A DNA stretch of 40,564 bases from Frankia sp. AiPs1 (lineage in GTDB: Bacteria > Actinomycetota > Actinomycetes > Frankiales > Frankiaceae): assembly GCF_023716945.1 (NCBI RefSeq), contig NZ_JAMQQF010000013.1, positions 1 through 40,564 of the forward strand. The letters are read 5' to 3'. Within the stretch, counting starts at the first letter, position 1; every line of letters begins with the position of its first letter. A program made the translations under genes and the position numbers. Shown in pieces: positions 8,262 to 23,289 of the stretch. The notes under the pieces were generated by a model. The model ran no database searches, was not told the DNA's origin, and was given only the letters and a program-made list of their open reading frames with translations.

Positions 8262-8741
8262 ATGACAAACTCCAGCCATGCGGGCCGCCACCAACCCGTG
8301 ACCGCCTCGGTGGGACGGAGCACCGCCGAGATCGAGGCCGCGCTGGACGCCGCCGCCGCGCTGCTTGCGGGCGCGGGGGCGCTGCTGGTGTGTGCGGGCG
8401 CCGGGATGGGCGTGGACTCGGGGTTGCCGGACTTCCGCGGCGACGCCGGCTTCTGGCGGGCCTACCCGCCGTACGAACGCCTCGGCCTGTCGTTCGTGGA
8501 GCTGGCCGACCCGGTCCACTTCCGCGACGATCCGACGCTGGCCTGGGGTTTCTACGGCCACCGCCTCGGCCTCTACCGGTCGAGGCGGCCGCACGAGGGC
8601 TTCGCCGTGCTGCGCCGGTGGGGCGCGCGGCTGCCCGGCGGAATGTACGTGTTCACGTCCAACGTCGACGGCCAGTTCCAGCGGGCCGGCATCGACGCGG
8701 TGGCGGAGGTCCACGGCTCCATCCACGTGCATCGAACTTAG
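8262..8741 (+). pseudogene. Sir2 NAD-dependent deacylase, N-terminal half cut by element insertion
   Basis: Residues 1-155 of a Sir2-family protein. NAD-binding motifs are intact: CAGAGMGVDSGLPDFRG (residues 44-60), FTSNVDGQFQRAG (the TQNxD region) and EVHGSIH with the catalytic histidine H151. At 8727 the sequence switches to element DNA, which adds V-H-R-T and a stop at 8739-8741. The rest of the gene (zinc-binding and C-terminal part) lies at 22861-23289. Fusing codon 155 (CAC, 8724-8726) to 22861 gives SIH-HLQCAGPC in frame and a 297-residue protein, normal for this family. As it stands the half lacks the zinc module and cannot be a complete enzyme. The ATG at 8262 is close to a CATAAT -10, so a leaderless or nearly leaderless message is possible. 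Confidence 0.93.
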
Positions 8742-8745
8742 TAAC
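8722..8745. other. attL: left junction of the integrated element
   Basis: The 5-bp core TCCAC (8722-8726) is shared with the right junction (22856-22860). To its left is Sir2 coding sequence. To its right is element sequence ending in TAGTAAC (8739-8745), the mirror of GTTACTA at the other end of the element. The stop codon that truncates the Sir2 half is inside this arm. Confidence 0.85.
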
Positions 8746-8778
8746 GACAGAAGATCGCCGTCCCGCCTCACCGCGGCC

Positions 8779-9327
8779 ATGCACCGGGGCCTGATCTACC
8801 TTGCCACCAAGGGTGGCCGCATCCACCACCTGGACACCGCCGTCCGCGCCAACACGATCACGGCTCTCATGGCGCGCAACCTGGTCACACAGACCGTGGC
8901 GCGCGGGACGACGCTGTTCTATGTCCTGACCGACGCCGGATGGGCTGCCCTGGCGGCAGCGTACGGCGTCGAGGTGCGGCCGGAGCAGGATGCCCCCACC
9001 GTCACGGTGCCGCAGGCGAGCGACGTCACCAGCACCCCCGACCGTCCCGAGGCCCGGACGGTCCGTTTGTGGTGGAGCTGGGATCTTGATCCCCGCACGG
9101 CCGCGCCGTGGCTGTCTAGGAACGGCACGATCAACTGCCCGGTCGGGGCCCTGGTGGCCACCGCGGTAGGGCTCGACGCGACCGTGACCGGCACCGGCCG
9201 GACGAAGCGCCGGTGCGCCCTGCGGAACCTACCCGCCATCCTCCGTGGCCACGTCGATGCCGCCATCCGCGACCACGTGACCAATCCGGACACTCACCCC
9301 ATGCGTGACCTCGCGATCGTCTCGTGA
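8779..9327 (+). CDS. element protein with winged-helix-like N-terminus
   Basis: 182 residues from the ATG at 8779, the first start codon in this frame after the attL junction. Residues 1-60 (LIYLATKGGRIHHLDTAVRANTITALMARNLV then LFYVLTDAGWAAL) look like a MarR/winged-helix fold with a beta-wing ending in a TDAG motif. The C-terminal part (LWWSWDLDPRTAAPWLSRN, RTKRRCALRNLPAIL) is unknown. Shine-Dalgarno is weak. It has the same orientation as the interrupted Sir2 gene, so it may be transcribed from the Sir2 promoter. Its stop overlaps the next start (GTGATG), which indicates translational coupling. Confidence 0.6.
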   Translation: MHRGLIYLATKGGRIHHLDTAVRANTITALMARNLVTQTVARGTTLFYVLTDAGWAALAAAYGVEVRPEQDAPTVTVPQASDVTSTPDRPEARTVRLWWSWDLDPRTAAPWLSRNGTINCPVGALVATAVGLDATVTGTGRTKRRCALRNLPAILRGHVDAAIRDHVTNPDTHPMRDLAIVS

Positions 9328-9566
9328 TGGACGATTTCCCCCGCGCCTACGCCGATGGCGACCCGTGGGAGACGATCACCGGATCGTGGTGGGCTCAGGA
9401 CGAGGTCATGAGAGGCCGGCATCCCCTGACCGGCGAGTGGCTAGCCGTGATCGATGTGGACCGGCCGTCCGGCCGTGACGGCGGGCTCGCCCTATGGCGG
9501 CATCCCGCGGACGACGACGGCGGTTGGCCGTTCTGGCAGTCCTGCCCGGCAATCCGGCTCAGCTAG
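9327..9566 (+). CDS. small acidic element protein of unknown function
   Basis: 79 residues starting at an ATG that shares one base with the stop of the upstream gene (a GTG at 9324 would overlap it by four). The sequence is rich in Asp, Trp and Gly (DDFPRAYADGDPWETITGSWW; DVDRPSGRDGGLALWRHPADDDGGWPFW) and has no recognised domain. The overlap is good evidence that it is translated. A strong hairpin follows 20 bp after the stop. Confidence 0.55.
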   Translation: MDDFPRAYADGDPWETITGSWWAQDEVMRGRHPLTGEWLAVIDVDRPSGRDGGLALWRHPADDDGGWPFWQSCPAIRLS

Positions 9567-9586
9567 CAACCACCCCGGAAATGCCG

Positions 9587-9611
9587 AGAGCCCCCACGTG
9601 GAGGGCTCTCT
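9587..9611 (+). terminator. hairpin after the first left-arm operon
   Basis: GAGAGCCC (9587-9594) pairs perfectly with GGGCTCTC (9604-9611). The loop region itself contains the palindrome CCACGTGG. A short pyrimidine run (TTCCTC) follows. It is probably an intrinsic terminator between two left-arm transcription units. Confidence 0.65.
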
Positions 9612-9666
9612 TCCTCGCGGGTGCAACCGCGGGGGCACTACCAAAACACCACCTCGAAGGATACCC

Positions 9667-10281
9667 GTGTCTCTTGGTCATCAGCTAGCCGCGTGGGATG
9701 TGTTCCCCGGCGAGCTCTCACCACAGGAACGTGTCGTTCTGCTCGCCCTGGCGGAGGATGCCCGGTCGGGCCGCGACGTCTGCAGCCCCGGACACCGGGT
9801 CCTGACGGCCCGGACCGGCCTGGGCCGCTCCCAGCTATCCGCCACCATCGCCCGTCTCGTCTCCCGCGGCCTGGTGCTCCTGGCGGAGCGGGCACGTCGA
9901 GGTAGGCACGCCGTCTACCGGCTACTGTTCGCCGAAAGAGAGCGTCCGGCGGACCGGACGCAGAACGCGCCGACTGGTACCGATCATGGTTCGGAAAGCG
10001 TCCGGCCTGCCGGGAGCCTCCCTGGTGGTTCTTCTCCCCGGAAAAACATCCTGTCGCGCGTCCGCGCTCCGAAGAGATCATCACCAACATCGAAGCTGCA
10101 GCCGTGGCAAGAGCCGTCGAACGCGCCGACGAACCGGCTCAAGCCGTCACCGCGGCCCGACCTGTCAGCCCTGCCTGAGCCGCCAGCGTGGGCCGTCGAG
10201 GTGGCCAGGGGGCAACTGGGACGGTTCGCGGGCCCGTCGGCCGTGCTGGCCGTGGCCCGCACGATCGCAGATGCGGCGTGA
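9667..10281 (+). CDS. winged-HTH element protein, possible replication or regulatory protein
   Basis: 204 residues from a GTG at 9667 with GAAGGA (9656-9661) five bases upstream, a strong ribosome-binding site. Residues 15-85 form a helix-turn-helix of the kind found in phage replication initiators and plasmid Rep-associated proteins: LSPQERVVLLALAEDARSG, VLTARTGLGRSQLSATIARLVSRGLVLL, RHAVYRLLF. The central region is Ser/Pro/Arg-rich and probably disordered. The C-terminus (PPAWAVEVARGQLGRFAGPSAVLAVA) is helical. No primase or helicase motif is present. The stop overlaps the start of the next gene by four bases. Confidence 0.65.
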   Translation: MSLGHQLAAWDVFPGELSPQERVVLLALAEDARSGRDVCSPGHRVLTARTGLGRSQLSATIARLVSRGLVLLAERARRGRHAVYRLLFAERERPADRTQNAPTGTDHGSESVRPAGSLPGGSSPRKNILSRVRAPKRSSPTSKLQPWQEPSNAPTNRLKPSPRPDLSALPEPPAWAVEVARGQLGRFAGPSAVLAVARTIADAA

Positions 10282-10664
10282 ACCTCACCCCCACCCAACG
10301 CGCCGCGGTGCGAATCGCCATGGCGCATCGTCTCGCCGATGGCCTGCCCGTCACCCGCGAGCAGCTCGTCCGGAAACTGTTCGGCCCGCCGGTCATCGCC
10401 GTCGCCACCGTCCGGCCCGTCGAGGTCGCCACCCTGGCGCCGTCCCTGGCGGTGGTGTTCGTCGAGCCCCCACCCGTCACCCCTGACGTCACCCCCGACG
10501 GGGTCGACGTGCACCCCGATCAGGTCATCACCTTCACCGAGGCTGCCCGGATGACCGGACTATCCGTCGGGACCGTGCGCCGTTACTGCGCCCCCTCGTC
10601 GGGCAAGCTCCGCAGGTCGGGCACCGGGGTGAGCCTGGCGTCCATCGAGGCCATGGCAGCCTGA
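10278..10664 (+). CDS. small protein with C-terminal excisionase/MerR-like HTH
   Basis: 128 residues from a GTG at 10278 that overlaps the upstream stop by four bases (GTGA). The N-terminal half (LTPTQRAAVRIAMAHRLADGLPVTREQLVRKLFG) is helical. The C-terminus, ITFTEAARMTGLSVGTVRRYCAPSSGKLRRSGTGVSLASIEAM, is a typical HTH_17/excisionase-type DNA-binding domain. In elements with tyrosine integrases such proteins are excisionases. With a serine recombinase a directionality role is possible but unproven, because those factors are very diverse. It ends convergent with the XRE-TPR gene. Confidence 0.68.
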   Translation: MNLTPTQRAAVRIAMAHRLADGLPVTREQLVRKLFGPPVIAVATVRPVEVATLAPSLAVVFVEPPPVTPDVTPDGVDVHPDQVITFTEAARMTGLSVGTVRRYCAPSSGKLRRSGTGVSLASIEAMAA

Positions 10665-10732
10665 CCGGTCGTAGTCCTGGTGGGCGTTGTTGCAGGTCAG
10701 CCGGCAAGTTGTGTAAACGACCCGTGCGGGTG

Positions 10733-11917
10733 TCACACGTCGGCGATCTCCTCCCGAAGCATGGCGGCAGCGTCCATAGCTGACGAGGATGCAGGCGAGT
10801 GGAGAACCTTAGCCGTGGCACTAAGGAGAATCTCATTGACTCGAGATGAGTTGATCTCTCCCGTATACACCAATAGGCCCTCCATAGTCGACTCCAAATC
10901 CACCCACGCTCCGGCCATAACCTGTACATCCAGCAGTGACGCAAGGTTATGGTATCTACGGCGCCTTTCCCTCGCCGGGGTAACCTCGATAGATCTTTGC
11001 AGCGCCTCAAGCGAATCAGACCACCGACCGAGGTCGGAATAGATCATTCCCTCATGCCAAAGAATTTCCTGATCATTGATCCACCAAAACCAGTAGGGCT
11101 CACTGTCGCGTACACCCTCCATGTACAGGCTTCGCGCCTTCGCGAAGCTGTCGAGCGCGCCACTTATATCGCCCCCCTGGGCCAGGGCGCGGGCCTCCCG
11201 CGTGCGGAACAATGCCTCTAGACGAGGGGTCAGCCTGTTGGTTTCGAGCACTTGCCGGGCGAGCGTGAGAGCCTCGGCAGGGCGGCCAAGGTGGGCCGCA
11301 TGCATCGCCATATTTTGCGTGACGAGCAGCTCCATTGCATGATCTCCGGCCGCTCTGCTCATACGTAATGCCTGTCGGTTTACGTCTCTAGCGGCGTCAT
11401 GTTTTGCAGCATCGTAGAGAAGCCACCCCGTTACCTCGGCCAACTCTGCCGCACTCGCTTGCAGATCTCGTTCAAGTCGCAGGGGAATCGAGGCCACTTC
11501 CATTTTCCGGCTCAGGTTCCCCAGCGCCTGCACCGCAAGCGCCGAGGACTGGTCTCCTCCAAAACTGAGATCCATCTCGACAAGATGCGCTATCCGATCC
11601 CGGACGAAGCCGAGATAGTCATCATCGACCGGCGCCTTTCGGTGCCCCTTCTCGCCCTGGCGTACGTCCTCCGGCATCAGTAAAACGGCGCGCTGCGGCA
11701 CATCCTCGGAGTCAATCAGGCGGGAGAGCTCGTCTAAGGAAATGTCGAGGACTTCAGCAAGCCGTGGCCTCACCGCAGGTTGCGGTTCAGTGTCGCCGTT
11801 TTCCCACCTGAAGATCGTGGTGCGGTCGACTCCAACGGCATGCCCTAGTGCCTCCTGACTCAGGCCGCGGGCCTTACGCCGTTTCACTAGATCCTTACGC
11901 CGCGCCCTGGGTGCCAT
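10733..11917 (-). CDS. XRE-family HTH regulator with TPR-like C-terminal domain
   Basis: 394 residues. Residues 5-60 are an XRE helix-turn-helix (LVKRRKARGLSQEALGHAVGVDRTTIFRWENGDTEPQP, then RLAEVLDISLDELSRL). From about residue 130 the protein is a series of antiparallel helix pairs typical of TPR arrays: AAELAEVTGWLLYDAAKHDAARDVNRQALRMSRAAGD; MHAAHLGRPAEALTLARQVLE; ARALAQGGDISGALDSFAKARSLY; LGRWSDSLEALQRSIEVTP. This architecture is common in actinobacteria and reminiscent of RRNPP-type peptide-sensing regulators, though no ligand is known. The ATG at 11917 is chosen because AGGGA lies 7 bp upstream. It is divergent from the ATPase operon at 12058 with a small inverted repeat between, so it probably regulates that operon and itself. 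Codon use is less GC-extreme than the chromosomal genes. Confidence 0.85.
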   Translation of the reverse strand: MAPRARRKDLVKRRKARGLSQEALGHAVGVDRTTIFRWENGDTEPQPAVRPRLAEVLDISLDELSRLIDSEDVPQRAVLLMPEDVRQGEKGHRKAPVDDDYLGFVRDRIAHLVEMDLSFGGDQSSALAVQALGNLSRKMEVASIPLRLERDLQASAAELAEVTGWLLYDAAKHDAARDVNRQALRMSRAAGDHAMELLVTQNMAMHAAHLGRPAEALTLARQVLETNRLTPRLEALFRTREARALAQGGDISGALDSFAKARSLYMEGVRDSEPYWFWWINDQEILWHEGMIYSDLGRWSDSLEALQRSIEVTPARERRRRYHNLASLLDVQVMAGAWVDLESTMEGLLVYTGEINSSRVNEILLSATAKVLHSPASSSAMDAAAMLREEIADV

Positions 11918-11956
11918 GGTTGCGTCCCTGTCTCCCTTGATCGCCTGCATCAATTA

Positions 11957-11971
11957 TGCAGCAGTTCTGCA
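11957..11971. promoter_or_regulatory. inverted repeat between the divergent XRE gene and cargo operon
   Basis: TGCAG-CAGTT-CTGCA forms a 5+5+5 dyad, with two more TGCA(G) words close by (11946-11950 and 11978-11983). The patch is notably AT-richer than its surroundings. This is a plausible operator/promoter region for the divergent pair, but I cannot assign a -35/-10 pair with confidence. Confidence 0.45.
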
Positions 11972-12057
11972 ACCACCATGCAGTCGCCTAGGCAAGCTGC
12001 CCGGACCAGTGTGGTCGGAGACGTCCGGAGGCAACGTAGACGGAGGGGCAGACGACC

Positions 12058-12162
12058 GTGACCATGACCGAGCCCGAGAGTGGCGGCATGCCGGGGGTCG
12101 CGCCTCCATCCGCGAAACAGCCGGAAGTCCCGCCGGTCCTCCTGCCGGCCGAACCGACGTGA
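12058..12162 (+). CDS. 34-residue micro-ORF coupled to the ATPase gene
   Basis: Starts at GTG 12058 (or ATG 12064) with a strong GGAGGGG (12042-12048) upstream. It encodes a Pro/Glu-rich peptide (TEPESGGMPGVAPPSAKQPE and on). Its stop overlaps the likely GTG start of the ATPase gene by four bases (GTGA). The ATPase itself has no good ribosome-binding site, so this short frame may be the translational feeder for it. It could be a leader peptide, a small partner protein or simply a coupling device. No homologue is recognised. Confidence 0.5.
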   Translation: MTMTEPESGGMPGVAPPSAKQPEVPPVLLPAEPT

Positions 12163-12701
12163 ACCAGTCGATAACTTACGAAGCGGACATCACCGTTCCG
12201 TCGGTGCCATCGGCTGTAGCGTGCTCGCGTCACTTTGCGGCGAGCACGCTTACGCAATGGCGAATTACTGATGTCGTGGACGTCGCCGAGTTGGTGATCT
12301 CGGAACTCGTCACGAATGCAATCAATGCTGGCGACGCTGCCGAGTCGGCCGGCGAGAACATGGTTCGGGTCCGAATCGTCGTGGCAGCGGATCGCCTGTT
12401 CATCAGCGTCTGGGATCGAAACGCGGGCGTCCCTGCCGTACGGGAAGCAGAATCGGATGCCGAAGGCGGTAGAGGTCTCTTTCTCGTCGACTCCTTGAGT
12501 AAGCGATGGGGCCATCGGCCTTCGAGGCGAGGCGGAAAGATCGTATGGGCTGAACTGGCCGCGTCGGTTCCTCGGACCGCTAAGGACCTTCCGATCCGTA
12601 TCCCCTCACCGATTCTGCGCGATCGGTACGTCTTCGATATCCGCGCAATCGACTCCGTACTGTTGAGGCGGACAGTTGACCGCCTCCATGCCCTGGCGTA
12701 G
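12159..12701 (+). CDS. RsbW-like ATP-binding (GHKL/HATPase) regulatory protein
   Basis: 180 residues. It is a stand-alone GHKL ATPase domain of the anti-sigma/RsbW type. The N box is VAELVISELVTNAINAG (conserved Glu and Asn), the G1 box is SVWDRNAGVPAV (D-x-G-x-P region), and the G2 region is GRGLFLVDSLSKRWGHRPSRRGGKIVWAEL. The C-terminal 40 residues (LPIRIPSPILRDRYVFDIRAIDSVLLRRTVDRL) extend beyond the usual domain. Such proteins bind ATP and often act as serine kinases on anti-anti-sigma partners, but no STAS or sigma gene is nearby. The GTG at 12159 overlaps the micro-ORF stop. It is first in a probable operon with the next three genes. Confidence 0.8.
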   Translation: MNQSITYEADITVPSVPSAVACSRHFAASTLTQWRITDVVDVAELVISELVTNAINAGDAAESAGENMVRVRIVVAADRLFISVWDRNAGVPAVREAESDAEGGRGLFLVDSLSKRWGHRPSRRGGKIVWAELAASVPRTAKDLPIRIPSPILRDRYVFDIRAIDSVLLRRTVDRLHALA

Positions 12702-12704
12702 CGG

Positions 12705-13223
12705 ATGCGCCGAATTCACTCGCAGCCAACACGTCGAGAGATCTTGACGGGGCATAGCTTGCCTGAGCCGATAGTCGTGCGCTCTTCCGATCTACCATCC
12801 CTGATGCTGCCCTACCAAGACGGGTTAATCATCGCTGGGCCCCCGGCCGTCCGGGGTCAATGTCAAGGGCGGTCTCGTCTCGATTTCATAGTCGTACCGG
12901 CCCACCGCTTGGCCGTCGCGGTGTATGTAGTCCAGATCGGCAAATCCGTCACGGCGGTCATGCACCGGCGTTGGGTGGCCAGCGAGCGGACCGCCCTGGC
13001 CCTGGTCATCTCTACCCATCTGCACCGAAGACGCACAGACGCGGGTCTCGTCGGAGACGTGGTTACCTCTGCTATACCGCCCGATATTCCCGAGGGGCTG
13101 ACCGTCGTGCCCCACCCCGTTCAGCTCGTCGACGATAACGGACGAGCAGAGGAACAACGAATCTGGGAGGTGAGACGACCGACTCAACACGGAAGGGTGC
13201 AAGCGAGCCAATGGCAAACCTGA
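12705..13223 (+). CDS. hypothetical cargo protein
   Basis: 172 residues in frame, ATG four bases after the ATPase stop. I recognise no family. The middle (LDFIVVPAHRLAVAVYVVQIGKSVTAVMHRRWV, then RTALALVISTHLHRRRTDAGLVG) looks like a small alpha/beta domain. The first 30 residues are less protein-like, and translation may instead start near 12777-12803. Bases 12776-12793 closely resemble a sequencing-adapter end, which raises the possibility of an assembly join inside this gene. It lies between the ATPase and GRDP-like genes on the same strand. Confidence 0.45.
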   Translation: MRRIHSQPTRREILTGHSLPEPIVVRSSDLPSLMLPYQDGLIIAGPPAVRGQCQGRSRLDFIVVPAHRLAVAVYVVQIGKSVTAVMHRRWVASERTALALVISTHLHRRRTDAGLVGDVVTSAIPPDIPEGLTVVPHPVQLVDDNGRAEEQRIWEVRRPTQHGRVQASQWQT

Positions 13224-13256
13224 ATCAAGGAACCAGACAGGAAAGGAATCGGACGG

Positions 13257-13709
13257 ATGACATCTGCGCGTGAGCTGGTCGCCCCCGACCTGTTCAACCG
13301 TCTCGCTGAGAGGGTCATGAAGGACGAGGGCCACGACCGCGACCACTCCGAAAGGATCGTCGATCAGGCGTTGGTCTTCTTGAAGGCGTGCGCCGACAAC
13401 CCCGGTGCCGCCCTCGGACCGTCGACCGCCGTCGACGCCGGATGGCACGCCTTCCTCCTCCACACCCGCGACTACGCCAGCTTCTGCGCCCGCGTCGCGG
13501 GCCGGTTCATCCACCACGAGCCCACCGACGGCGACAGCTCGCGCGCCGGTACCCTGCACCGGACCATCACCGCCGTACGCGCCACCGGGTACGAGGTGGA
13601 CGAGAGCATGTGGGCTCTGGCGGCCGTAGCGGACTGCGCGGACGAAGGGAACTGCTCCGCCTCCGGCAAGGACGGGGACGAGAACAAGGACACTAGAATT
13701 CCCAAGTAG
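13257..13709 (+). CDS. GRDP-like (glycine-rich domain protein-like) cargo protein
   Basis: 150 residues from an ATG with AAGGAA eight bases upstream. The segment PSTAVDAGWHAFLLHTRDYASFC matches the D-x-x-W-H-x-x-L-x-x-T-x-x-Y core that marks the GRDP-like/DUF1399 family, here in its short bacterial form. The N-terminal helices (LFNRLAERVMKDEGHDRDHSERIVDQALVFLKAC) and a second half with a Cys pair (DCADEGNC) surround it. Function is unknown in bacteria. It is followed after 15 bp by the APH-fold gene, so the two probably work together. Confidence 0.65.
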   Translation: MTSARELVAPDLFNRLAERVMKDEGHDRDHSERIVDQALVFLKACADNPGAALGPSTAVDAGWHAFLLHTRDYASFCARVAGRFIHHEPTDGDSSRAGTLHRTITAVRATGYEVDESMWALAAVADCADEGNCSASGKDGDENKDTRIPK

Positions 13710-13724
13710 GAAGAAGGGCGACAG

Positions 13725-14633
13725 ATGGTGACCACCGCATGGGAAGAGCTCCCGGCTCTGCTACGGGACGAGGTAGAACGCCACGTCGGCCCCGTCGCGA
13801 AGGCAACCCCTGTAAGGGTCGGAGGCAATAGCGACGTCGCAGCATTCCTTGACGTACCTGAAGGTCGGGTTTTCCTCAAGGGCGTCAAGGGGATATCGCG
13901 GCCCATGCGGTGGCTCCGCAACGAGGTCTCAGCCGGGACGCTCGCGGCGCCGCTGGCTCCGGCCGTCCTGTTCTCCGTGGAGCTGGACGACTGGTTGGCG
14001 GCCGGCTTCGAGTATGTGCCCGGCCGTCCCGCCGACCTCTCCCCCCGCTCGCCGGACCTAGAACTTGTCGGGTCGACTCTTGAGCGGATGAGCGTCATCA
14101 CGGCCACGGGGCTCAAGGGCCTACACGAGCGGTGGACGGTCCGGGACTGGTGGAGCCGCCTGGCCACAGAAGCACCTGCCCACGTGGCGGACTGGGACGT
14201 CGACAGGATGGACCGATGGACCGCGCTTGCACCGGAAGCCGTGCAAGGCGACCGGCTCACCCATACCGATCTTCACGGTGACCAATTCGTACTCGGCGCA
14301 GACGGGCGGGTCCACGTCATCGACTGGGGATGGCCAGCAGCGGCAGCCGAATGGGTTGATACGGCTTTTATGGTGATCCGGCTTATCGAAGGCGGGCATA
14401 CCCCAGCCCAGGCGGAAGAATGGGCCGGAACGCTGCGGACATGGTCCGGCATTGACGGCGAGGCGGTCACTGCCTTCGCGGCCTTCGTTGCTGGCCTGTG
14501 GACTTACCGCGCGGCCACAGACAACAATTCCGGCATGCACGGCCGTGCGAAGATAGCGCGAGAGTACGCCGCGTGGCGACTTCCGGTCGTGAACTCGACT
14601 TCGAAGACGGGCACGGTCGGACCTCCAAGGTGA
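13725..14633 (+). CDS. aminoglycoside-phosphotransferase-fold kinase
   Basis: 302 residues from an ATG with AAGGG six bases upstream. The APH/choline-kinase fold is shown by the catalytic loop LTHTDLHGDQFVL (Brenner-like H-x-D, with D as catalytic base) and the metal-binding VHVIDWGWP (D-W). The usual asparagine five residues after the catalytic Asp is Gln here (H-x-D-x-x-x-x-Q), a deviation. The N-lobe has FLDVPEGRVFLKGVKG, with a lysine suited to ATP binding, and EVSAGTL. A role in antibiotic resistance is only one possibility; many actinobacterial members are of unknown substrate. It ends the cargo operon (ATPase, hypothetical, GRDP-like, APH). Confidence 0.8.
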   Translation: MVTTAWEELPALLRDEVERHVGPVAKATPVRVGGNSDVAAFLDVPEGRVFLKGVKGISRPMRWLRNEVSAGTLAAPLAPAVLFSVELDDWLAAGFEYVPGRPADLSPRSPDLELVGSTLERMSVITATGLKGLHERWTVRDWWSRLATEAPAHVADWDVDRMDRWTALAPEAVQGDRLTHTDLHGDQFVLGADGRVHVIDWGWPAAAAEWVDTAFMVIRLIEGGHTPAQAEEWAGTLRTWSGIDGEAVTAFAAFVAGLWTYRAATDNNSGMHGRAKIAREYAAWRLPVVNSTSKTGTVGPPR

Positions 14634-14715
14634 CACGGGTACGGGGTGGGGCCCGGATCCTATCCGGCAGGGTCGGACGATCCGTCGACCACGTCGACCG
14701 TGTAAACGACGAAAA

Positions 14716-14748
14716 GCCCCCACCCGACCGGCGAGGTCGGATGAGGGC
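14716..14748 (-). terminator. intrinsic terminator of the leftward capsid operon
   Basis: On the minus strand a GC-rich stem (CCGACC/GGTCGG core at 14724-14729 and 14735-14740, extended by GCCC/GGGC at 14716-14719 and 14745-14748) is followed by CTTTTCG, a typical hairpin plus T-run. It lies downstream of the capsid operon and after the APH gene on the other strand. Confidence 0.7.
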
Positions 14749-14779
14749 AAGGTGGTGCGTCGTCGTCGAGGTTGAACCG

Positions 14780-14876
14780 CCACGGTGATCACTAGGCGTC
14801 ACGGAGCTGTGAAAAAAAATGACTGGGCGATGGGTCACTAGGCGTAGTCGCTCAGAAGAAATCGGCCCACGGTGAT
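14780..14876. repeat. interleaved 10- and 11-bp direct repeats in a gene-free stretch
   Basis: CCACGGTGAT occurs at 14780-14789 and 14867-14876. TCACTAGGCGT occurs at 14789-14799 and 14835-14845. An A8 run (about 14812-14819) lies between them. The whole stretch 14634-14997 has no gene apart from the terminator at its left. Iterated words plus an A-tract are what one sees at regulator-binding or replication-origin sites; the role is unknown. Confidence 0.6.
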
Positions 14877-15902: not shown

Positions 15903-17324
15903 CTAGGAGGTCTTATTGACCAGGACTCGGAAAGCGTTGGCGTTGATCACGCCAGCCCCGACACGCGACCACGCGAACAGACCGCGCTGCCCGGTCGGAC
16001 GCCGGTTCGACCCAAACAGATGCGGGACCGCCTCGATCTGCATTCCCGCACGCTGCGCCACGAGGTAGCCCTTGAAGTCGCCCACTGCCAGAATGGCACC
16101 GGCATTGGTGCCGGTCGGGAGGTCAGGCATATACTCATTTTCCGAAAATGCCCTAGAGAACAGCGTCGGGATGCCGCCCTGCGTCAGATCAACCGTGAAG
16201 TTGGGATCGGTCGTCCCGAGCTGCCGGATCGTGTTCTCCACGTCGGTCGAAGCCATAAAGGCACACCCGGGCGCCGCCCGGAAGCGCGCCGGCAACGCCT
16301 TCCACAGGGAGTAGACCGAGTTCGCTCCGAGAGTCCCCGCGGTGGGCACCACCAGGGGCGCCGGAGACGTACTCGCCACCAACTGCGCGATGAGCCCGTC
16401 AGGTTCGCCGCTGCCGTTCGTGCCGACCGTCAGCTTCTGAGCCAACAGCTCGTTGTAGCCCTCAGAGACCAGTTCGCCCATAGACCGAGCGAAATTCACC
16501 CAGTCCATTTCGACCTCGACGCTGAACGGGATGAACCCGTCCGCTCGACGGGCGATAATCTCAGGCTGGGCAATGGTCGGGCTGTTGTCGGTCGCTTCCG
16601 CCGCCTCGGCGTGGAACTGCCAGGACATGCCCGCGCTAGAAAGGCCGGTCCACCGGTCAGTGGTGATCGTCTCGACCCGGGCCAGATTGTAAATGCTGTT
16701 CGGCGAGCCCTGCGCCGTGAGAACGATGGTCGGGTCGATGATCCCGGGGACCGCATAGCCGCCGGTGCCAGGACCCCCAATGGCCAGCGCGCGAACCTCG
16801 CGGATAGCCGCCGCCTCCGCGGCAGTGAAAGCCGGGGCTGCGGGGTCAGCGGCAGCCCGCATGAACGCGGAGAGATACTCCGGCCGGGAACTCGCCAGAA
16901 TGTGGCGGCCCAGACGATCACCGTCGATGTCGTCCGTACGGGACTCCACGAGGCGCTCGACGTGCCCGCGGGCGTCGCCGTCGAGGTGGCGAGCGTCGCG
17001 GCTGTCGAGAACTCGCAGCACCCCATCGCGGACGGTCTGACGGGAAGCGTGACGGAGGTCGATGTCGTTCAGGCTGTCAGTGGTGCCCATCTTGATAACT
17101 CCGGGGTGTGCGGCGCGGCTACGGGTCAGGTTTTCGGAACGCTCAAAGGAACTCAGCTCTCTGTCCCGAAAATCAAGTTCGGCGTCGAGGGCTTCCCATA
17201 CCTGCTGCTGCCGCTCGTCGAGTGCCTGGTCCGTGGCCTCATCGTGGAGCGCCTGCATTGCCTCGGAGATTTCGCCGATGCGATTTCGTGTCTCCAAAGC
17301 CGTGCGGCTTGGAATGTATGACAT
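15903..17324 (-). CDS. HK97-fold phage major capsid protein
   Basis: 473 residues. The N-terminal 60 residues (TRNRIGEISEAMQALHDEATDQALDERQQQVWEALDAELDFRDREL) are a charged coiled coil like the delta domain of HK97 gp5. The core carries HK97-capsid features: ALAIGGPGTGGYAVPGIIDPTIVLTAQGSPNSIYNLARVETI (N-arm and E-loop region), VEVEMDWVNFARSMGELVSEGYNELLAQKLTVGTNGSGEPDGLI (spine helix, then G-x-G-x-x-x-P-x-G), and near the C-terminus VGDFKGYLVAQRAGMQIEAVPHLF. Length with the delta domain is normal. No protease gene is adjacent to process it. It is the only recognisable structural phage gene in the element. The ATG at 17324 is chosen because it begins just before the coiled coil; the Shine-Dalgarno is poor. 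Confidence 0.88.
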   Translation of the reverse strand: MSYIPSRTALETRNRIGEISEAMQALHDEATDQALDERQQQVWEALDAELDFRDRELSSFERSENLTRSRAAHPGVIKMGTTDSLNDIDLRHASRQTVRDGVLRVLDSRDARHLDGDARGHVERLVESRTDDIDGDRLGRHILASSRPEYLSAFMRAAADPAAPAFTAAEAAAIREVRALAIGGPGTGGYAVPGIIDPTIVLTAQGSPNSIYNLARVETITTDRWTGLSSAGMSWQFHAEAAEATDNSPTIAQPEIIARRADGFIPFSVEVEMDWVNFARSMGELVSEGYNELLAQKLTVGTNGSGEPDGLIAQLVASTSPAPLVVPTAGTLGANSVYSLWKALPARFRAAPGCAFMASTDVENTIRQLGTTDPNFTVDLTQGGIPTLFSRAFSENEYMPDLPTGTNAGAILAVGDFKGYLVAQRAGMQIEAVPHLFGSNRRPTGQRGLFAWSRVGAGVINANAFRVLVNKTS

Positions 17325-17548
17325 GGATGACCCATCGTCGTGGCGGTATGGCGCGCGAATGCGCCAAAGGGAAAACCGCACGAACGGCAGCGAACCGATG
17401 TGGAGCCCGTCCGAAATTCAAGGAATTCCGAGGGAGAGCATCGGGGGCCGGAAGGTTCGACGGGGTGTTACGGGGGTGGTGCGATACGGCCGGCACGAAC
17501 TCACACGATGATCAGTCGCGCGAGGGGTGGAAGGCCATGTGCCGCCAG

Positions 17549-17959
17549 TCAGGCGGCAGGGTTGTTGCGTGCTGTCCAGCGGCGCCGATTCTGCAAGCGG
17601 CGATCGTTCGCCACGATCTCCCAGTGGGTGCGCTGGACAGCATCCGGGCCGTAGTCGTCCGCATCGTCGCTGACGTGGCCACGAGCTCGGATGTTCAGGT
17701 TCCCCATCCGTCCGGGGACGGCAGGGAGGTTCGTGATGCGGCGTGGCCCTGCGGGCTCACCACCGGCCGCAGCCGCAGACCTGGGCACCGGCTGCGGCGG
17801 ACGCCAGGGGGACGACCGCGGCCCCCAATGGGTGTTCAGCCACTCCCGGGCCTGCGCGTGCCGCAGGGCTGCGGCGGGCGTTGGCGCGGCGAGTCCGAGC
17901 CGGGCGCGCTGTTCGGCGAGCTCGTCGCCCTGGCCGTCGTCATCCTCGGGCACGTGCAC
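17549..17959 (-). CDS. hypothetical element protein upstream of the capsid gene
   Basis: 136 residues if started at the GTG at 17959 (another GTG at 17953 follows a G5 run). The frame stays open back to 18067, but that part overlaps the previous gene. An acidic start (VPEDDDGQGDELAEQ) precedes a helical stretch (RARLGLAAPTPAAALRHAQAREWLNTHWG), a Pro/Arg/Ala linker and a basic C-terminus (THWEIVANDRRLQNRRRW). I do not recognise it. Its place before the capsid gene would suit a scaffold or DNA-binding role, but nothing in the sequence proves that. Confidence 0.5.
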   Translation of the reverse strand: MHVPEDDDGQGDELAEQRARLGLAAPTPAAALRHAQAREWLNTHWGPRSSPWRPPQPVPRSAAAAGGEPAGPRRITNLPAVPGRMGNLNIRARGHVSDDADDYGPDAVQRTHWEIVANDRRLQNRRRWTARNNPAA

Positions 17960-17972
17960 CCCCGTAAAACGA

Positions 17973-18140
17973 TCAGAGTTGGACGCGGCGCCGGTAGGGT
18001 CGCTCGGCGGCCCGCAAGACAGCGGCCGAGAAGCATCCGGCGGCGCGCAGACGTCCAAGGGCATCATCTACATAGGGCGGTTCGGCGAAGGCCGGAGAAT
18101 CCAGCTCAGGGCCCGCATCGGGGGTAGGGTTGTCGGTCAT
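17973..18140 (-). CDS. 55-residue element protein, coupled
   Basis: Starts at an ATG whose A is shared with the upstream stop (TGATG), strong evidence for coupled translation. The peptide has an acidic, Pro-rich start (TDNPTPDAGPELDSPAF) and a helical basic end (VDDALGRLRAAGCFSAAVLRAAERPYRRRVQL). No family recognised. Confidence 0.55.
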   Translation of the reverse strand: MTDNPTPDAGPELDSPAFAEPPYVDDALGRLRAAGCFSAAVLRAAERPYRRRVQL

Positions 18141-18367
18141 CACGCGGCTCGCCCCTGGCCGGTATCCGAATTCCCCGGAACGACCGTGAGCCGAGCTCGA
18201 CGTGCTGCTAGCCGACGCTCGCGACCGACCTTCAAACTGTGGGCGTACCGGCATCCTGCGCTACAGAACTCTCGCGGCCTTCCACTAGGGGCAGTGATGT
18301 CGACGGTCTCCCCGCAGTGGCGGCACGGGCGCGTCAGCGCACCATCTGCGCTCGGAGGTTCGGGCAT
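18140..18367 (-). CDS. 75-residue zinc-finger protein, first gene of the capsid operon
   Basis: ATG at 18367 with AAAGGA seven bases upstream, a strong site. The cysteines in PCRHCGETVDI and REFCSAGCRYAHS form a C-x-x-C ... C-x-x-x-C zinc finger like those found in small DNA-binding proteins of actinobacterial elements. A very basic helix (KVGRERRLAARRARL) follows. Its stop overlaps the next start by one base. The promoter should lie in 18368-18450. Confidence 0.62.
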   Translation of the reverse strand: MPEPPSADGALTRPCRHCGETVDITAPSGRPREFCSAGCRYAHSLKVGRERRLAARRARLTVVPGNSDTGQGRAA

Positions 18368-18449
18368 GGCCAGGTCCTTTCGTCGAGGTGTGGGGCATGG
18401 CGAATAGACCCGCCGGCCGGTGATCGCCGCGGGCTACGGATTGCGGGTG

Positions 18450-18482
18450 TGGGGATGGGGAAGGGGAAGGGGAAGGGGAAGG
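18450..18482. repeat. G-rich GGGGAA simple repeat
   Basis: Four to five tandem GGGGAA units follow GGGGATGGGG. The four or more G-runs could form a G-quadruplex on the + strand. It lies upstream of the leftward capsid operon and of the rightward HTH frame, in an otherwise gene-free stretch (18368-18569). Confidence 0.8.
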
Positions 18483-18569
18483 TTCCCGAAACTTTCGCTC
18501 TTACCTTAGATAACATGCCGCGCCGCCAATTTCGCGGCACGCAGCGATCACAACGTCTACACAAAAGTT

Positions 18570-19061
18570 CTGCGAAGGTCTCGCCTCTACTTTAATTATC
18601 TCCTAAGCCCATCAGGTGAACACATCCCCGATCTTGAATCGAGTACAGTCACGCAACAGACGCTCGCGGACACCTTCGGGGTATCACAGTTCACGATCTC
18701 CGAAGACCTCAAGGTTATAGGGACCTATAACCCGCCGAAGGGCAAGGGCAGGAAGGGCGGACGCCCGCGCGGACACGGGTCGGACGGCAAGAGCTCCGAC
18801 GCGAGCAAGGCCATTCCCGTACCCCTGGATACGCCTACAGCCGGCGAACTCGACTTCCCGGTCTATACCGGGGCTGGGTGGCGAGGAAAAGGCGCCCAGA
18901 TTGGAAGTGGGGGCGCCTCGGATCGGACCGATGCCCGAGCTACCCCGCTGTCGGTTCACCGACAGCGGGGAGCCCTGCCGGTTCCCTGCCGCTCCGGGCG
19001 GGAGACACTAGTGAGACACGGTCGGCTAGTGGAACGGGGGATGAATGATGGGAACCGATGA
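18570..19061 (+). pseudogene. HTH protein frame without a normal start codon
   Basis: The frame is open from 18510 to a stop at 19059-19061, yet has no ATG, GTG or TTG before the conserved region; CTG at 18570 is the first conceivable start. The peptide is convincingly protein-like: RRSRLYFNYLLSPSGEHIPD, then TVTQQTLADTFGVSQFTISEDLKVIGTY. The latter is a DeoR/sigma-like helix-turn-helix. A basic linker PPKGKGRKGGRPRG follows. From about 18890 the frame runs through a hairpin and loses protein character, so the natural end may also be damaged. Either it starts at CTG or a 5' frameshift has broken it. It overlaps the next gene by 17 bases. Confidence 0.45.
18943..18970 (+). terminator. 12-bp perfect hairpin
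   Basis: CCCCGCTGTCGG (18943-18954), loop TTCA, then CCGACAGCGGGG (18959-18970). No T-run follows. It is probably a transcription terminator after the HTH frame, or a stable structure upstream of the membrane-protein gene. Confidence 0.6.
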
Positions 19062-19788
19062 TCGGCCAGACGATGATGGTCCGGCGCCTAGCCCGAACCC
19101 TGACACCGGCGACACGGACCCGCCGGCACCCGACGACGAGGGCGAGCCCGGTCCAGGCAATGAAGGCGAGCCGCCAGACGAGGAATCGCCCGGCCGGCGG
19201 GGCGGACGGAGCACACTGGAACTGCTGACGGTTGGACTGACGGCCATCGCGTTCATCGTCGGATCAGTCTTCTCGTACCTTTCGGTGGTTGCATCGAAGG
19301 ATTCTGTCGTAGTCGCGCGAGAGGCTCTGGACGACTCCCGTCAAGCCGAAGACGCGGACACTCTAAAAGACTTGTCGCGGATCAGCTTTGATGTTCACCT
19401 GCAAGAAGGGCGTGAGGTTCTTGACGTCAGGAACCGATCATCGAGACCGTTTGGGCTCTACGAGATGTCCTACGTCTACAGTGACCCCCGATCTGGACTT
19501 CGTATGATGAATGCACACCTTGAAGGCATCCCTTCCGTATTGGCCCCCTGTAACGATGTGACCCTTTCCGCGGACGCCGAGTCCGGATTCTGGGTGGTTG
19601 AGAAGAGTCGAAAGTTTTCGGCTAGATTGCTAGAGGGGGTCGACTTTGCGGAGAGCGGAAGCTATGCGATAGGTGAATTCGGAGCGCAGCCGGTGAAGCG
19701 GATCTTCATCGGAATCCAGCCAAAAAATATTGATACGACGATCGTGGAATTCAGGCTCGATAGGAAAGCCGAGATCGAGAACTGCTAG
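19045..19788 (+). CDS. single-pass membrane cargo protein
   Basis: 247 residues with two ATGs in a row at 19045, after a GGGGG site. Residues 1-52 are Asp/Pro/Glu/Gly-rich and disordered (GTDDRPDDDGPAPSPNPDTG and on). A basic stretch (GRRGGRST) precedes one membrane segment, LELLTVGLTAIAFIVGSVFSYLSVV. The remaining 165 residues (DLSRISFDVHLQEGREVLDVRNRSSRPFGLYEMSYVY, LAPCNDVTLSADAESGFWVV, FIGIQPKN) look like a beta-rich domain. By the positive-inside rule this domain is outside. No family recognised. Codon use is markedly less GC-rich than the chromosomal genes, which fits recent transfer with the element. Confidence 0.72.
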   Translation: MMGTDDRPDDDGPAPSPNPDTGDTDPPAPDDEGEPGPGNEGEPPDEESPGRRGGRSTLELLTVGLTAIAFIVGSVFSYLSVVASKDSVVVAREALDDSRQAEDADTLKDLSRISFDVHLQEGREVLDVRNRSSRPFGLYEMSYVYSDPRSGLRMMNAHLEGIPSVLAPCNDVTLSADAESGFWVVEKSRKFSARLLEGVDFAESGSYAIGEFGAQPVKRIFIGIQPKNIDTTIVEFRLDRKAEIENC

Positions 19789-20424
19789 CCGCCGTCGTAC
19801 GGACGAGAGTAGCTGATAGCGGGAGTTCTGAAAATCAGCAACGGCACGACGAACGAGCGCAGGCCAGATCACCTCATGGCCGGAGTGAGTGAGGAGTCCA
19901 CGGCGAACCCCGAAGCGTTCATCAGCTTCGGGCAGGGTGAGCAGTGGCCGCGAGCTGCGGACGCTGCGACCTCGGGAACGTAACCACAGATCTGACCGGC
20001 TCCCCGGGCGGGAGCCTCTGACGACTTCGTAGGCGCTTCTGTGACCGCGTAGGCGCCATCGCCGTAGCGGGTCGGGTGGTTGGGTTACAGACCCGAACGG
20101 AAGCCCTCCGGATGGCCTCCGGACTTCCTTCGCCATGAACGACGAAGGGCGGCCCCCGATGGGACCGCCCGACTCGTACCTACCTCTGTCGCCCCCGCCT
20201 CCGGCCGATTGGGGGCTCTTCGTGCCGGCCGGTGCCGAGTCCGGCCGGTGTCGTTGTCGGGTGCAGCGCCTACCGGCCGATTGCTGCCCCCTTCCCCCAC
20301 CTCGCTCGCTCGCCGTGGCTCGCTTGCCGCTGTGGCTCGCTTCGCTCCGCCTACGCTCCCGTTCGCTCGCCTGTGGGCTCGCTCTTATATAGGGAACAAC
20401 TGCGTTCCTCGTGTTCTCGGTTGA
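19789..20424. other. gene-free stretch with hairpin and GCTCGC-type repeats
   Basis: No convincing gene on either strand. A hairpin (GGGCGG 20147-20152, CCGCCC 20165-20170) and another around 20100-20130 (CCTCCGGA repeated) are present. From 20289 to 20386 the DNA is a run of degenerate GCTCGCT/GCTTCGCTC words followed by an AT-rich TTATATAG (about 20384-20391). Such iterated, palindrome-poor words beside an AT-rich box could be a replication or partition site, or a regulatory region for the rightmost operon. That is inference only. Confidence 0.5.
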
Positions 20425-20925
20425 CTACGCTGCGCTAATCCATCTCTGTACGGTGGACGGGGGCACGCCCATCAACTTCCCGATGGTCTTGGCCGGGTAT
20501 CCCTCGTCCCGGTGCAGCCGCCGCGCCTCCTCCCGGTCGTTCTCGCAGTACAGCCGCGTCCGCGGCTTGCGGGCGAGCTTCGGAGCTACCTCCGCGGGCG
20601 GGTCGGTCAGGAGCCCGCGAGCCTTCATCCACGCCACCCGACGTTCAGCCTCCGGCCGGCACTCGTCGTGGAGCCACACCCCGCGGGCGGTCGGCGCCAA
20701 GCGGACGCGCTTGCTCGCCGGATCGTCACAGACGACACAGCGAGGGTCGGACAGCGGTACCGGTTCGTCGTCGCCGATCGGGTCGAAAAGCTGCTCACGG
20801 CTGGACTGGTACCGACTGCGCCGCTTCCACGATCGCAGAATCTCGCCGGTGTCGATGTCCACCACGCCCACCTCAACGCCCGTGAGACTCACGATCCGAA
20901 GTCGCGGACACTGTTTCGGGCTCAC
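20425..20925 (-). CDS. HTH protein with zinc-like CxxC, downstream of the integrase
   Basis: 166 residues from a GTG at 20925. A four-ligand pattern CVVCDDP and WLHDEC (C-x-x-C, H-x-x-C) sits at about residues 63-89. The C-terminus, REEARRLHRDEGYPAKTIGKLMGVPPSTVQRWI, is a helix-turn-helix of the resolvase/Hin type. The N-terminus (RLRIVSLTGVEVGVVDIDTGEILRSW) is beta-rich. It is the third gene of a probable leftward unit after the serine recombinase and a small protein, a place where recombination directionality factors or regulators of integration are often found. Its role is not proven. Confidence 0.65.
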   Translation of the reverse strand: MSPKQCPRLRIVSLTGVEVGVVDIDTGEILRSWKRRSRYQSSREQLFDPIGDDEPVPLSDPRCVVCDDPASKRVRLAPTARGVWLHDECRPEAERRVAWMKARGLLTDPPAEVAPKLARKPRTRLYCENDREEARRLHRDEGYPAKTIGKLMGVPPSTVQRWISAA

Positions 20926-20959
20926 TCGTCACCGCCCCGGCAGGACCCTCGCCCGCGAC

Positions 20960-21142
20960 TCACGCCGCCATCTCCTCGACATCAGCGGACGTGCGCGCGG
21001 CGATGGACACCAGGACATCGGCGGTCGAGCCAACCGCCGCGGCAAGCGCATCCACAATTTCAGCGTGGGTCGCCCGCGAGGGGATCGGCGCCTTGTCAAT
21101 CATCGCCGCAATCCAGGCCGCATCGGATTCATAGGAAGGCAA
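20960..21142 (-). CDS. small element protein, start uncertain
   Basis: At least 60 residues from a TTG at 21142 (GGGG eight bases upstream): PSYESDAAWIAAMIDKAPIPSRATHAEIVDALAAAVGSTADVLVSIAARTSADVEEMAA. The frame remains protein-like upstream (VVLLLVDDGAILLPSYE) but has no start codon there. A second frame begins at ATG 21198 with GGGAG upstream and encodes a hydrophobic 32-residue peptide (RRFVPVSFFCLLMTGLFFCL) overlapping it. So either TTG is the start or the two frames are linked by a slip. It is helical with no recognised family. Confidence 0.45.
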   Translation of the reverse strand: MPSYESDAAWIAAMIDKAPIPSRATHAEIVDALAAAVGSTADVLVSIAARTSADVEEMAA

Positions 21143-21321
21143 AAGAATAGCCCCGTCATCAACAAGCAGAAGAACGACACGGGAACAAAACGTCGCATGA
21201 CGAACGCTCCCACTATTGCCACCGAATCAATGCGGTGCGCCGTCGTTTTCTCGCCTGGACGGTAAGGCCGTCTCTTGATCCTAGCATGTCCCCGACGTGG
21301 CGATGGTCCGCCCCGGTCGTG

Positions 21322-22827
21322 TCACTCCTGATGTAGCCATCGGACGTCGAGCCGGTCACGGTATGGCGCCCGATCCTTCGGCGAGATACGCCGTAGATCC
21401 GAGGTGTTGGGGTCCGGGTACGCGGCGACGGTGTCCAGGATGGCAGACAGGACCCGCCTTCGGGCTTTGAGATCATCACTACCCCATGCGCGCACCGCGT
21501 CAGCGGGGTCGAGCTGCACTGTTGCCCTTGTCCCTGCTTCGATCTGCTGATCGATATCTGTGATGCGCGACTCAAGCTGTCTGGTAATCACCGTATGTGT
21601 ACGCGGCGAGATCTCTCCGGCTTCTAGCTGTGTATCTGCTCCGTCAAGATCCGCCAAAACGGTGAGGCGCTCTCTGCGCAAGTCTTCCACTGCCGACGCA
21701 CTATCGGACCGTGTCCAGGGGTGCCGCGCAAGGTATGCCGAGACAAGGTCCTCTAGAAGGGCTTCGAGTGGCGTAGCGGAAAAGGAGAACCAGAGATCAC
21801 AGTCACTGTAGTCGCTCCCCCGGCCAGCCTTGTGACGCCAGGACGAAAATTCGTCCTGCTCCCCACGCCGTGTAGTTCCACGGATGAACTTCCCGGCGCA
21901 TTTGTGACAAGATATGAACCCTGCCCACAGGTGGCGCACCCGGGTTCCCGTCGAGCGGTGACGCCCCGAAATGACGTCCAACGCTTTTACAGTCTTCCCC
22001 CATTCGTCGACGGTTAGGATAGGATCCATATTGGTCATCATCCGGCCGTCCGTCACCCACGCCCTAGTTGTTCCCCCCGTGGCGAATAGGCCGGCGATAC
22101 GCGGATGCCGAAGATAGCCCCGTAGCGTCGTCGGAACGATCGGCTTACCCTCGTTAGTGGTAATACCCTTGGCATGCAGGTCTCGACAGATCGCGTTGAC
22201 CGCGGTCCCCTTACGGACCTCCTCGGCGATGCGGCGGAGCTCCTGAGCCTCTTCCGGTACCACAAGCCAGCGAATCGACCATTTTGACCCGTTCCGACGG
22301 TACTCGGATCGCCATCCGAAGCCGACGGGGCCTCCCATATATTCGGCTCTTTCCTCCTTGCGGCGTCTCGCGGCACGTACGTTCTCTGACTTGAGATCGG
22401 AATCCCCGGTCGATTGCGCTACCGCGCTCCGCCAGTTGCCACAGTCCGCCGACCTGGTGAAGTCGTAGACGGTGCTCGTCTTCCCGTCGGTTGAGATCAG
22501 GCGGGCACCGGCTGCCTTCATGGCTTTCTCAAAGAGGTCACCCACGCCGACGTCCCGCGTGATGCGAGACTCCCGCCAGACCAGCACCGTGCGCACCTTG
22601 CCCGCGCGGATCGCGACCATGAGGGCATCGAACCCGGGCCGCTGGACACCCTCACGCCACGCCGACGCCCCGTTGTCCACGAAGCGCTCGACGATGGTCA
22701 ACTCATGGGCTGCGGCGTAGGTGTCCGTGATCGTGATCTGTTCGTCGATCCGCTCGCCGTCGACGTTGAGCTGACTCATCCGGGCATAGGTTGCGCTCTG
22801 TGACGGATCTGGGTATGGCGTGCTCAT
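21322..22827 (-). CDS. large serine recombinase (integrase of the element)
   Basis: 501 residues from ATG 22827. The resolvase domain is clear: ATYARMSQ, with the nucleophile S18 in Y-x-R-x-S; VERFVDNGASAWREGVQRPGFDALM (S/A-W...R-P-x-F region with active-site Arg); and VRTVLVWRESRITRD. The recombinase domain follows (PVGFGWRSEY, EEAQELRRIAEEVRKGTAVNAICRDLHAKGI, LRGYLRHPRIAGL). Next is a zinc-ribbon (FISCHKCAGKF ... SDCDLW) and a coiled coil (SAVEDLRRERLTVLADLDGADTQLEAG, TRQLESRITDIDQQIEAG) that normally controls attP x attB versus excision. Length is typical. Only three ribbon cysteines are obvious. Starting 29 bp inside the right junction and reading inward is the classic integrase position. 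It catalyses integration into the Sir2 gene. Confidence 0.95.
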   Translation of the reverse strand: MSTPYPDPSQSATYARMSQLNVDGERIDEQITITDTYAAAHELTIVERFVDNGASAWREGVQRPGFDALMVAIRAGKVRTVLVWRESRITRDVGVGDLFEKAMKAAGARLISTDGKTSTVYDFTRSADCGNWRSAVAQSTGDSDLKSENVRAARRRKEERAEYMGGPVGFGWRSEYRRNGSKWSIRWLVVPEEAQELRRIAEEVRKGTAVNAICRDLHAKGITTNEGKPIVPTTLRGYLRHPRIAGLFATGGTTRAWVTDGRMMTNMDPILTVDEWGKTVKALDVISGRHRSTGTRVRHLWAGFISCHKCAGKFIRGTTRRGEQDEFSSWRHKAGRGSDYSDCDLWFSFSATPLEALLEDLVSAYLARHPWTRSDSASAVEDLRRERLTVLADLDGADTQLEAGEISPRTHTVITRQLESRITDIDQQIEAGTRATVQLDPADAVRAWGSDDLKARRRVLSAILDTVAAYPDPNTSDLRRISPKDRAPYRDRLDVRWLHQE

Positions 22828-22837
22828 AGCGTCATAG

Positions 22838-22860
22838 GTTACTATGGCTGGCATGTCCAC
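22838..22860. other. attR: right junction of the integrated element
   Basis: GTTACTA (22838-22844) is the element-side arm, followed after 11 bases by the core TCCAC (22856-22860). Sir2 coding sequence then resumes with CACCTGCAG. Joined to the left junction, the element ends give an attP of about 42 bp with matching 7-bp arms around the core. The integrase start codon lies 11 bp inside the arm. Confidence 0.85.
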
Positions 22861-23289
22861 CACCTGCAGTGCGCCGGCCCGTGCGGCGGGGAGATCTGGC
22901 CGGCCGACGGCGTCGAGGTGAACGTCGATCCGGAGACGATGCGCGCGGGCGAGCCGCTGCCCCGCTGCCCGTCGTGCGGCGACCTGGCCCGGCCGAACAT
23001 CCTCATGTTCGGCGACGGATCCTGGGTGAGCGAGCGGACCGACGCCGCGCTGCGCTCCTGTGAGTCCTGGCTGGACGAGGTGACCGCGCCGGGCGCCGAC
23101 GGCCCGCTGGTGGTCGTCGAGATCGGCGCGGGCACCGCCGTGCCGATCGTGCGCCGCACCGCCGAGTCCCTCGCCGACCACCTGATCCGCATCAATCCCG
23201 CCCAGCCCGAGATCCGCCCCGGCACCGGCGTGCCCCTCCCCCTCGGCGCCCTGCCGGCCCTGACCGCCCTCGCCACCCGGCTGCCCTGA
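22861..23289 (+). pseudogene. Sir2 NAD-dependent deacylase, C-terminal half
   Basis: 142 codons plus stop, continuing the Sir2 frame from 8726: HLQCAGPCGGEIWP, then LPRCPSCGDLARPNILMFGD. The two cysteine pairs (C-x3-C and C-x2-C) are the sirtuin structural zinc site, and NILMFGD is the usual conserved strand after it. VVVEIGAGTAVPIVRRTAE matches the C-terminal Rossmann NAD-binding strand (GAGTAV). There is no start codon at the junction; a GTG at 22918 could give a fragment of no obvious use. Restored only when the element excises. Confidence 0.93.

Follow-up and report, generated by a model that had tools for sequence, protein, structure and literature searches.

An element inserted in a Sir2 gene of Frankia

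In the 40,564-nucleotide stretch of Frankia sp. AiPs1 analyzed here (contig NZ_JAMQQF010000013.1; henceforth the window, to which all unprefixed coordinates refer), a gene for a Sir2-family deacylase is interrupted by an integrated element of 14,134 bp (8727..22860), which carries its own large serine recombinase (LSR) gene. We propose, with a probability of roughly 0.9, that this is an ordinary LSR insertion, namely that of a 14.1-kb phage-derived integrative element whose bacterial attachment site (attB) lies within the Sir2 gene of Frankia. The insertion is real and precise, and it is ordinary in kind, with related elements doing likewise in other genes. An earlier, sequence-only reading of this DNA had seen in the arrangement a reversible switch: its first part, that a site-specific element splits the Sir2 gene and that precise excision would rebuild it, stands, but the on/off switch is not supported and kin elements lie in unrelated genes.

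The split gene and its reconstruction

The 5' half of the gene (8262..8726, forward strand) comprises codons 1-155, runs up to VHGSIH and contains one copy of the core TCCAC, and the 3' half (22861..23289, forward strand) resumes with HLQC and continues to the stop codon. When the intervening 14,134 bp are removed and the halves are brought together at the core, they yield a protein of 297 residues plus stop with no change of frame, which matches the Pfam SIR2 family (PF02146) at an E-value of 2e-19 and hence belongs to it. On its own, the left open reading frame (ORF) scores 1.2e-12 against that family, and the ORF from 22918 within the right half has no Pfam match at E 0.01. The joined sequence contains GAGMG/SGLPDFRG, TSNVDG and VHGS together with the Cys pairs C-x3-C and CPSC, both pairs being encoded in the right half; we presume for these motifs the functional roles usual in Sir2 proteins. 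The break falls four residues past the histidine of VHG. The coordinates, core, in-frame rebuilding, length and motifs claimed for the gene at the outset are all borne out by this joined translation.

From the preceding stop to the junction, the lysogen offers the right half no start codon in frame (ATG, GTG or TTG); the GTG at 22918 could open a 123-residue ORF within that half. The solved structures nearest to the joined sirtuin are chains of sirtuin-5 (4utn_A, 1.8e-22) and of Sir2 deacylases, the latter of which we take to be archaeal-type. The window genome has one other Sir2 match, a distant one (G000:C1125, 35%).

The uninterrupted gene in relatives

When the window was aligned with congener stretches by blastn, 8245-8726 and 22856-23295 mapped to one contiguous place in the genome G006, with the flanks overlapping by exactly 5 bp (TCCAC) there and also in G003, G010 and G002; the flank alignments in G012 and G004 are likewise contiguous, with ends off by a few bases. 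Because both flanks fall on a single gene in congener DNA with this exact overlap, the match between the two TCCAC copies is not due to chance, and the overlap therefore fixes the insertion at its 14,134 bp.

Sir2 orthologues were sought in 58 genomes including the window's own, 12 of them congeners (G003, G002, G010, G012 and G004 being counted there as of the same genus, Frankia). Six of the 12 congeners have an intact orthologue at 77-92% identity; the remaining six gave only distant Sir2 matches (best 1.7e-19), two of them being below 90% complete and G011, which lacks a close match, being a single contig. In the stretch of G009 that was read, a decayed Sir2 relic (L066 10308-10471) covers residues 25-56 and 143-170, with a large internal deletion. 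The gene thus looks dispensable in the genus, to judge from G011 and G009. Close orthologues, defined as matches better than 1e-100, are found in fourteen genomes besides that of the window, and in all 14 tblastn yields one segment in which VHGS[IL]HHLQC is unbroken; similarly, one segment spans Sir2 residues 145-165 in each of 37 named loci, at least five genomes being common to both sets. Among the genomes searched, the split is confined to the window genome. Natural half-genes with no intact relative, which the sequence-only reading itself had named as the observation that would tell against it, were looked for, and relatives instead carry the uninterrupted gene. A natural two-gene arrangement is accordingly rejected, since congeners align to one contiguous gene and the orthologues and named loci are unbroken.

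The recombinase and its attachment sites

The LSR gene (21322..22827, reverse strand) encodes a 501-residue protein with a Resolvase domain (PF00239, 1.6e-15), a Recombinase domain (PF07508, 2e-10), a match to the integrase family phrog_95 (4.5e-56) and the sequence YARMS, which we take to be the catalytic-serine motif. It adjoins attR, with 28 bases between its start (22827) and the attR core (22856..22860, forward strand). The attL core lies at 8722..8726 (forward strand), and both cores read TCCAC, the 5-bp overlap of the congener alignments. The locus combines the features by which an LSR element is recognized: a two-domain integrase adjoining an attachment site and, in relatives, an empty attB with short core identity.

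We advance the following plausible mechanism. The element's own LSR would have acted at an attB inside VHGSIHHLQC, the conserved coding motif of the Sir2 gene, recombining it with the phage-side site (attP) at the common TCCAC core. The deacylase would presumably be lost in the lysogen as a by-product of this insertion. Excision by the LSR together with a directionality factor, for which the element offers a candidate at most, would restore the gene exactly, as with any such element. In the attP predicted from the two junctions, the arms GTTACTA and TAGTAAC are inverted about a point within the core, and this centre of symmetry suggests CA as the probable crossover dinucleotide of the window element.

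Related elements in other genes

In Frankia sp. QA3 (L065), six ORFs of the window element (18140, 17973, 17549, the capsid gene, 10278 and 8779) recur in the same order, the match of the 17549 ORF being weak (9.6e-5), and the LSR beside them is just 28% identical to that of the window. The QA3 element, which also has a prohead protease alongside its capsid, measures 13,606 bp from core to core (TCGCTGG) and separates the halves of an ATP-binding cassette (ABC) transporter gene, located in L065 around 2745 and 16390. A search of 33 genomes matched the left half of this transporter in 14, one of which is QA3 itself, and the gene is contiguous across the QA3 break in all three loci checked, among them the window genome's own copy. 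Window 8727-22860 and L065 2745-16400 have a common layout of LSR, small ORFs, HK97 capsid, helix-turn-helix (HTH) protein, replication-initiator-like gene and ORF8779; terminase, portal and tail genes are not convincingly recognized in either. The two elements possibly represent a family of capsid-bearing islands.

LSRs nearer to that of the window (37-39% identity) are found twice in G011 and once in F. gtarii. The second G011 element (12,053 bp, core CCTAC) splits a major facilitator superfamily (MFS) gene that is contiguous in G008; its LSR has an in-frame TGA, given which the element may be stuck. The F. gtarii element (12,431 bp, core TACGC) has one half of an MFS gene on either side, with no intact copy having been compared. 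In both G011 (L062/L082) and F. gtarii (L063/L083), the MFS gene is broken close to one and the same motif at the N-terminus (NSY|N and NGYA|I, respectively). The first G011 element (CcI3a) is not counted as a proven gene split, since the left half of a flavin mononucleotide (FMN) reductase is represented beside it by no more than a candidate with a disrupted frame. Over the three elements of G011 and F. gtarii, tblastn finds the LSR in 3/3, a relative of the ORF at 12705 in 2/3 and a capsid relative in 0/3; the relatives of that ORF (12705-13223), at 30-32% identity, lie at L061 4901-5874 and L063 4509-4991. Taken together, the kin elements split unrelated genes, namely that of an ABC transporter in QA3 and MFS genes in G011 and F. 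gtarii, which favors an ordinary insertion. As for symmetry, the inverted run in the attP of the second G011 element is 11 bp long, a length reached in 0/2000 shuffles, and is centred as in the window attP; the corresponding figures for the F. gtarii and QA3 sites are 137/2000 and 50/2000, with centres elsewhere, in or at the edge of the core.

Single-protein queries returned no confirmed LSR relatives in genome or viral contigs and no capsid relatives in viral contigs. Phage records hold distant LSRs (89 records) and capsids (69 records), every one of them under 60% identity, and plasmids yielded five distant LSRs. In a 393-genome sample of the class, the LSR is matched at E <= 1e-60 in just G000 (the window genome), G011 and G002, with few candidates scored per genome, and capsid relatives at E <= 1e-30 occur in 17 genomes, the window's own included. 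Loci were fetched around the capsid relatives of G003, G369, G347 and G280; that of G369 was rejected as kin, being, on a reading of its ORFs rather than a family search, part of an ordinary prophage in which some ORFs resemble terminase and portal genes.

Gene content of the element

The G+C content of the insert is 64.4%, below the 73.6% and 72.3% of its flanks. Adjoining attL is the first ORF (8779..9327, forward strand), which is common to the QA3 element. Partial homologues of it (G000:C714 5658-5918 and in L072, L073, L074 and L076) occur elsewhere in the window genome and in three further genomes from the same family, and are perhaps remnants of related elements. Next come a phage replication-initiator-like protein (9454..10281, forward strand), which matches the O-like phrog_391 at 2.7e-10 and whose real start is probably internal, and a small HTH protein (10278..10664, forward strand; scanned as 10188-10664) that is also common to the QA3 element. 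The latter has weak MerR-like and excisionase matches and is a candidate excision or regulatory factor.

Two genes appear to be cargo. One encodes an NsdA-family regulator (10733..11953, reverse strand; NF053720, 1.2e-53) that combines an HTH with tetratricopeptide repeats (TPR) and matches RmrA models (best 2.4e-8) in its HTH part only; the other, divergent from it, encodes an anti-sigma-factor-like HATPase_c_2 protein (11916..12701, forward strand). Both gene types are tied to development in streptomycetes. For the ORF at 13725-14633, there is no Pfam or PHROG match, and NCBIfam gives only thiamine kinase, far under its cut-off. The HK97-type major capsid protein gene (15903..17381, reverse strand; PF05065 2.9e-26, TIGR01554 3.2e-36) may have an internal start. 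Upstream of it lie three small, partly overlapping ORFs (18140-18367, 17973-18254 and 17549-18067, together 17549..18367, reverse strand). Similarity to them is found in the QA3 element, and some of the three may not be genes. Family scans further recognize an HTH protein at 20425..20925 (reverse strand). Its match to a terminase large subunit family (phrog_5751, 0.0013) extends across just a 35-residue HTH stretch; this was taken as an HTH cross-match and the terminase identity was not accepted. In all, both Pfam and PHROGs were run on 17 ORFs of the element, and Pfam alone on another ten, most of them antisense; no portal, protease, connector, tail or FtsK-type gene is found among them.

Switch, attack on defense or artefact

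Several points weigh against an ordinary insertion. Neither Sir2 half has acquired a stop or frameshift, which also fits a gene still used through excision; the 7-bp run of the window attP is equalled in 200 of 2000 shuffles with the centre left free and is weak evidence when taken alone; and the action of the LSR, the continued mobility of the element and the candidate directionality factor are predictions from sequence. The first of these points bears on active lysogeny, whereby a developmental or stress cue (spores, nitrogen-fixing vesicles) would trigger excision and restore Sir2, with subsequent reintegration or loss of the element from a terminal cell line. The exact in-frame restoration, the NsdA-family regulator and the anti-sigma-like protein would suit this scenario, and a precedent is offered by SPbeta in spsM of B. 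subtilis, with the LSR SprA and the small factor SprB (PMC4191935).

Against it, the split is known in the window genome only, with the Sir2 gene missing or decayed in other congeners. The assembly was also searched with attB and attP; the four matches were all half-sites in the window contig, and none was an excised junction, which is weak evidence that speaks for the assembly alone. Further, the substitutions private to the window copy comprise seven nonsynonymous (two in one codon) and two synonymous changes, as against 8:16 in G006 and G003 and 28:51 in five other genomes together (Fisher P = 0.047 and 0.026, respectively), in a test on nine changes made with no explicit tree and with the G006 and G012 orthologues cut at residue 279. 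This points weakly to relaxation rather than constraint: the split copy may be under slightly relaxed selection, if anything, and the simplest reading would be a recent insertion, perhaps with some relaxation. With so few changes, the counts lend no support to a maintained Sir2 function, nor do they exclude it. Exact restoration on excision is, moreover, inherent to LSR chemistry; being expected of any LSR, it is therefore in itself no evidence for a switch. Hence, we regard active lysogeny as improbable and the element as an ordinary insertion that would have no switching role.

More doubtful still is an extension of this idea, in which the window and QA3 elements would be phage satellites, forming a Frankia family, so far undescribed, of LSR islands with a capsid gene but no terminase, whose excision in vesicles or spores would re-activate the sirtuin.

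Some Sir2-domain proteins are antiphage NADases, and it had been suggested that silencing such a defense would favor the element; taken further, the LSR would have evolved to hit Sir2 as an NADase, with insertion disarming the host. This proposal finds next to no credence with us. The sirtuin and three flanking proteins tested (23436-25004, 5638-6804, 36332-38857) have no PADLOC match at E 0.01, the nearest solved relatives are sirtuin-5 and Sir2 deacylases, kin elements sit in transporter genes, and a survey of LSRs reports no enrichment within or near anti-phage genes (PMC10083194). A targeted attack on host defense is rejected on the PADLOC result, the survey and the kin, and the earlier suggestion is not supported. 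Equally negligible is an assembly artefact uniting two unrelated stretches: the draft assembly is in 1203 contigs, yet the junctions share a common core, the ORFs at the element ends are ordered alike in QA3, and four congeners show an empty site that agrees with the flanks base for base.

The value of the locus lies in: (i) an LSR for which a 5-bp core pinpoints both attachment sites; (ii) what would be a naturally occurring knockout of a sirtuin in a Frankia-like strain, alongside congeners in which the gene is whole; (iii) a reminder that LSR integration by default leaves a split gene open to exact restoration; (iv) a small capsid-carrying element family, common to the window and Frankia sp. 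QA3, which may merit its own study.

Comparison with known systems

An FtsK-type translocase is a criterion for actinomycete integrative conjugative elements (AICEs). The window element has a replication-initiator-like gene, a possible parallel to the AICEs of Frankia, but its product matches phage O-like families, and the FtsK-type transfer protein is not found among the ORFs scanned. The matches of ORF 9454-10281 are to phage replication-initiation families, AICE Rep profiles having been covered as far as they are in Pfam. In one report, 19 of 144 AICEs use an LSR (PMC3218068), a point of likeness to the window element.

As a small element with its own capsid gene, it resembles both the capsid-forming phage-inducible chromosomal islands (PICIs) and the Streptomyces satellites MulchRoom and MiniFlayer, MulchRoom likewise having an integrase, though of the tyrosine type. 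The definition of capsid-forming PICIs calls for a single element that encodes capsid, protease, portal, connectors and terminases (PMC10690885), and of these the capsid alone is found among the scanned ORFs of the window element.

With SPbeta in spsM, the skin element in sigK and the prophage in comK, the window element shares a gene split by an element and rebuilt by precise excision. In terms of regulated excision and a fitness role of the rebuilt gene, it differs from SPbeta, skin and the comK prophage (presumably A118-type) in being known from its DNA letters alone. The case of SPbeta, alongside which the comK prophage is mentioned, illustrates that a real switch needs not just a recombinase but also a directionality factor under separate regulation and a gene that serves development (PMC4191935); of these, the window element has the recombinase.

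No LSR element lying within a sirtuin gene came up in a limited literature search. In the LSR survey, target genes are disrupted on integration and competence genes are enriched among them; Sir2 or sirtuins are absent from its main text, and the Sir2 deacylase target sets the window element apart from the elements surveyed (PMC10083194). In all other respects compared, it is like the LSR elements with a coding attB described there: a site-specific LSR, a short core, a conserved coding motif as the site and a gene disrupted by the insertion (PMC10083194).

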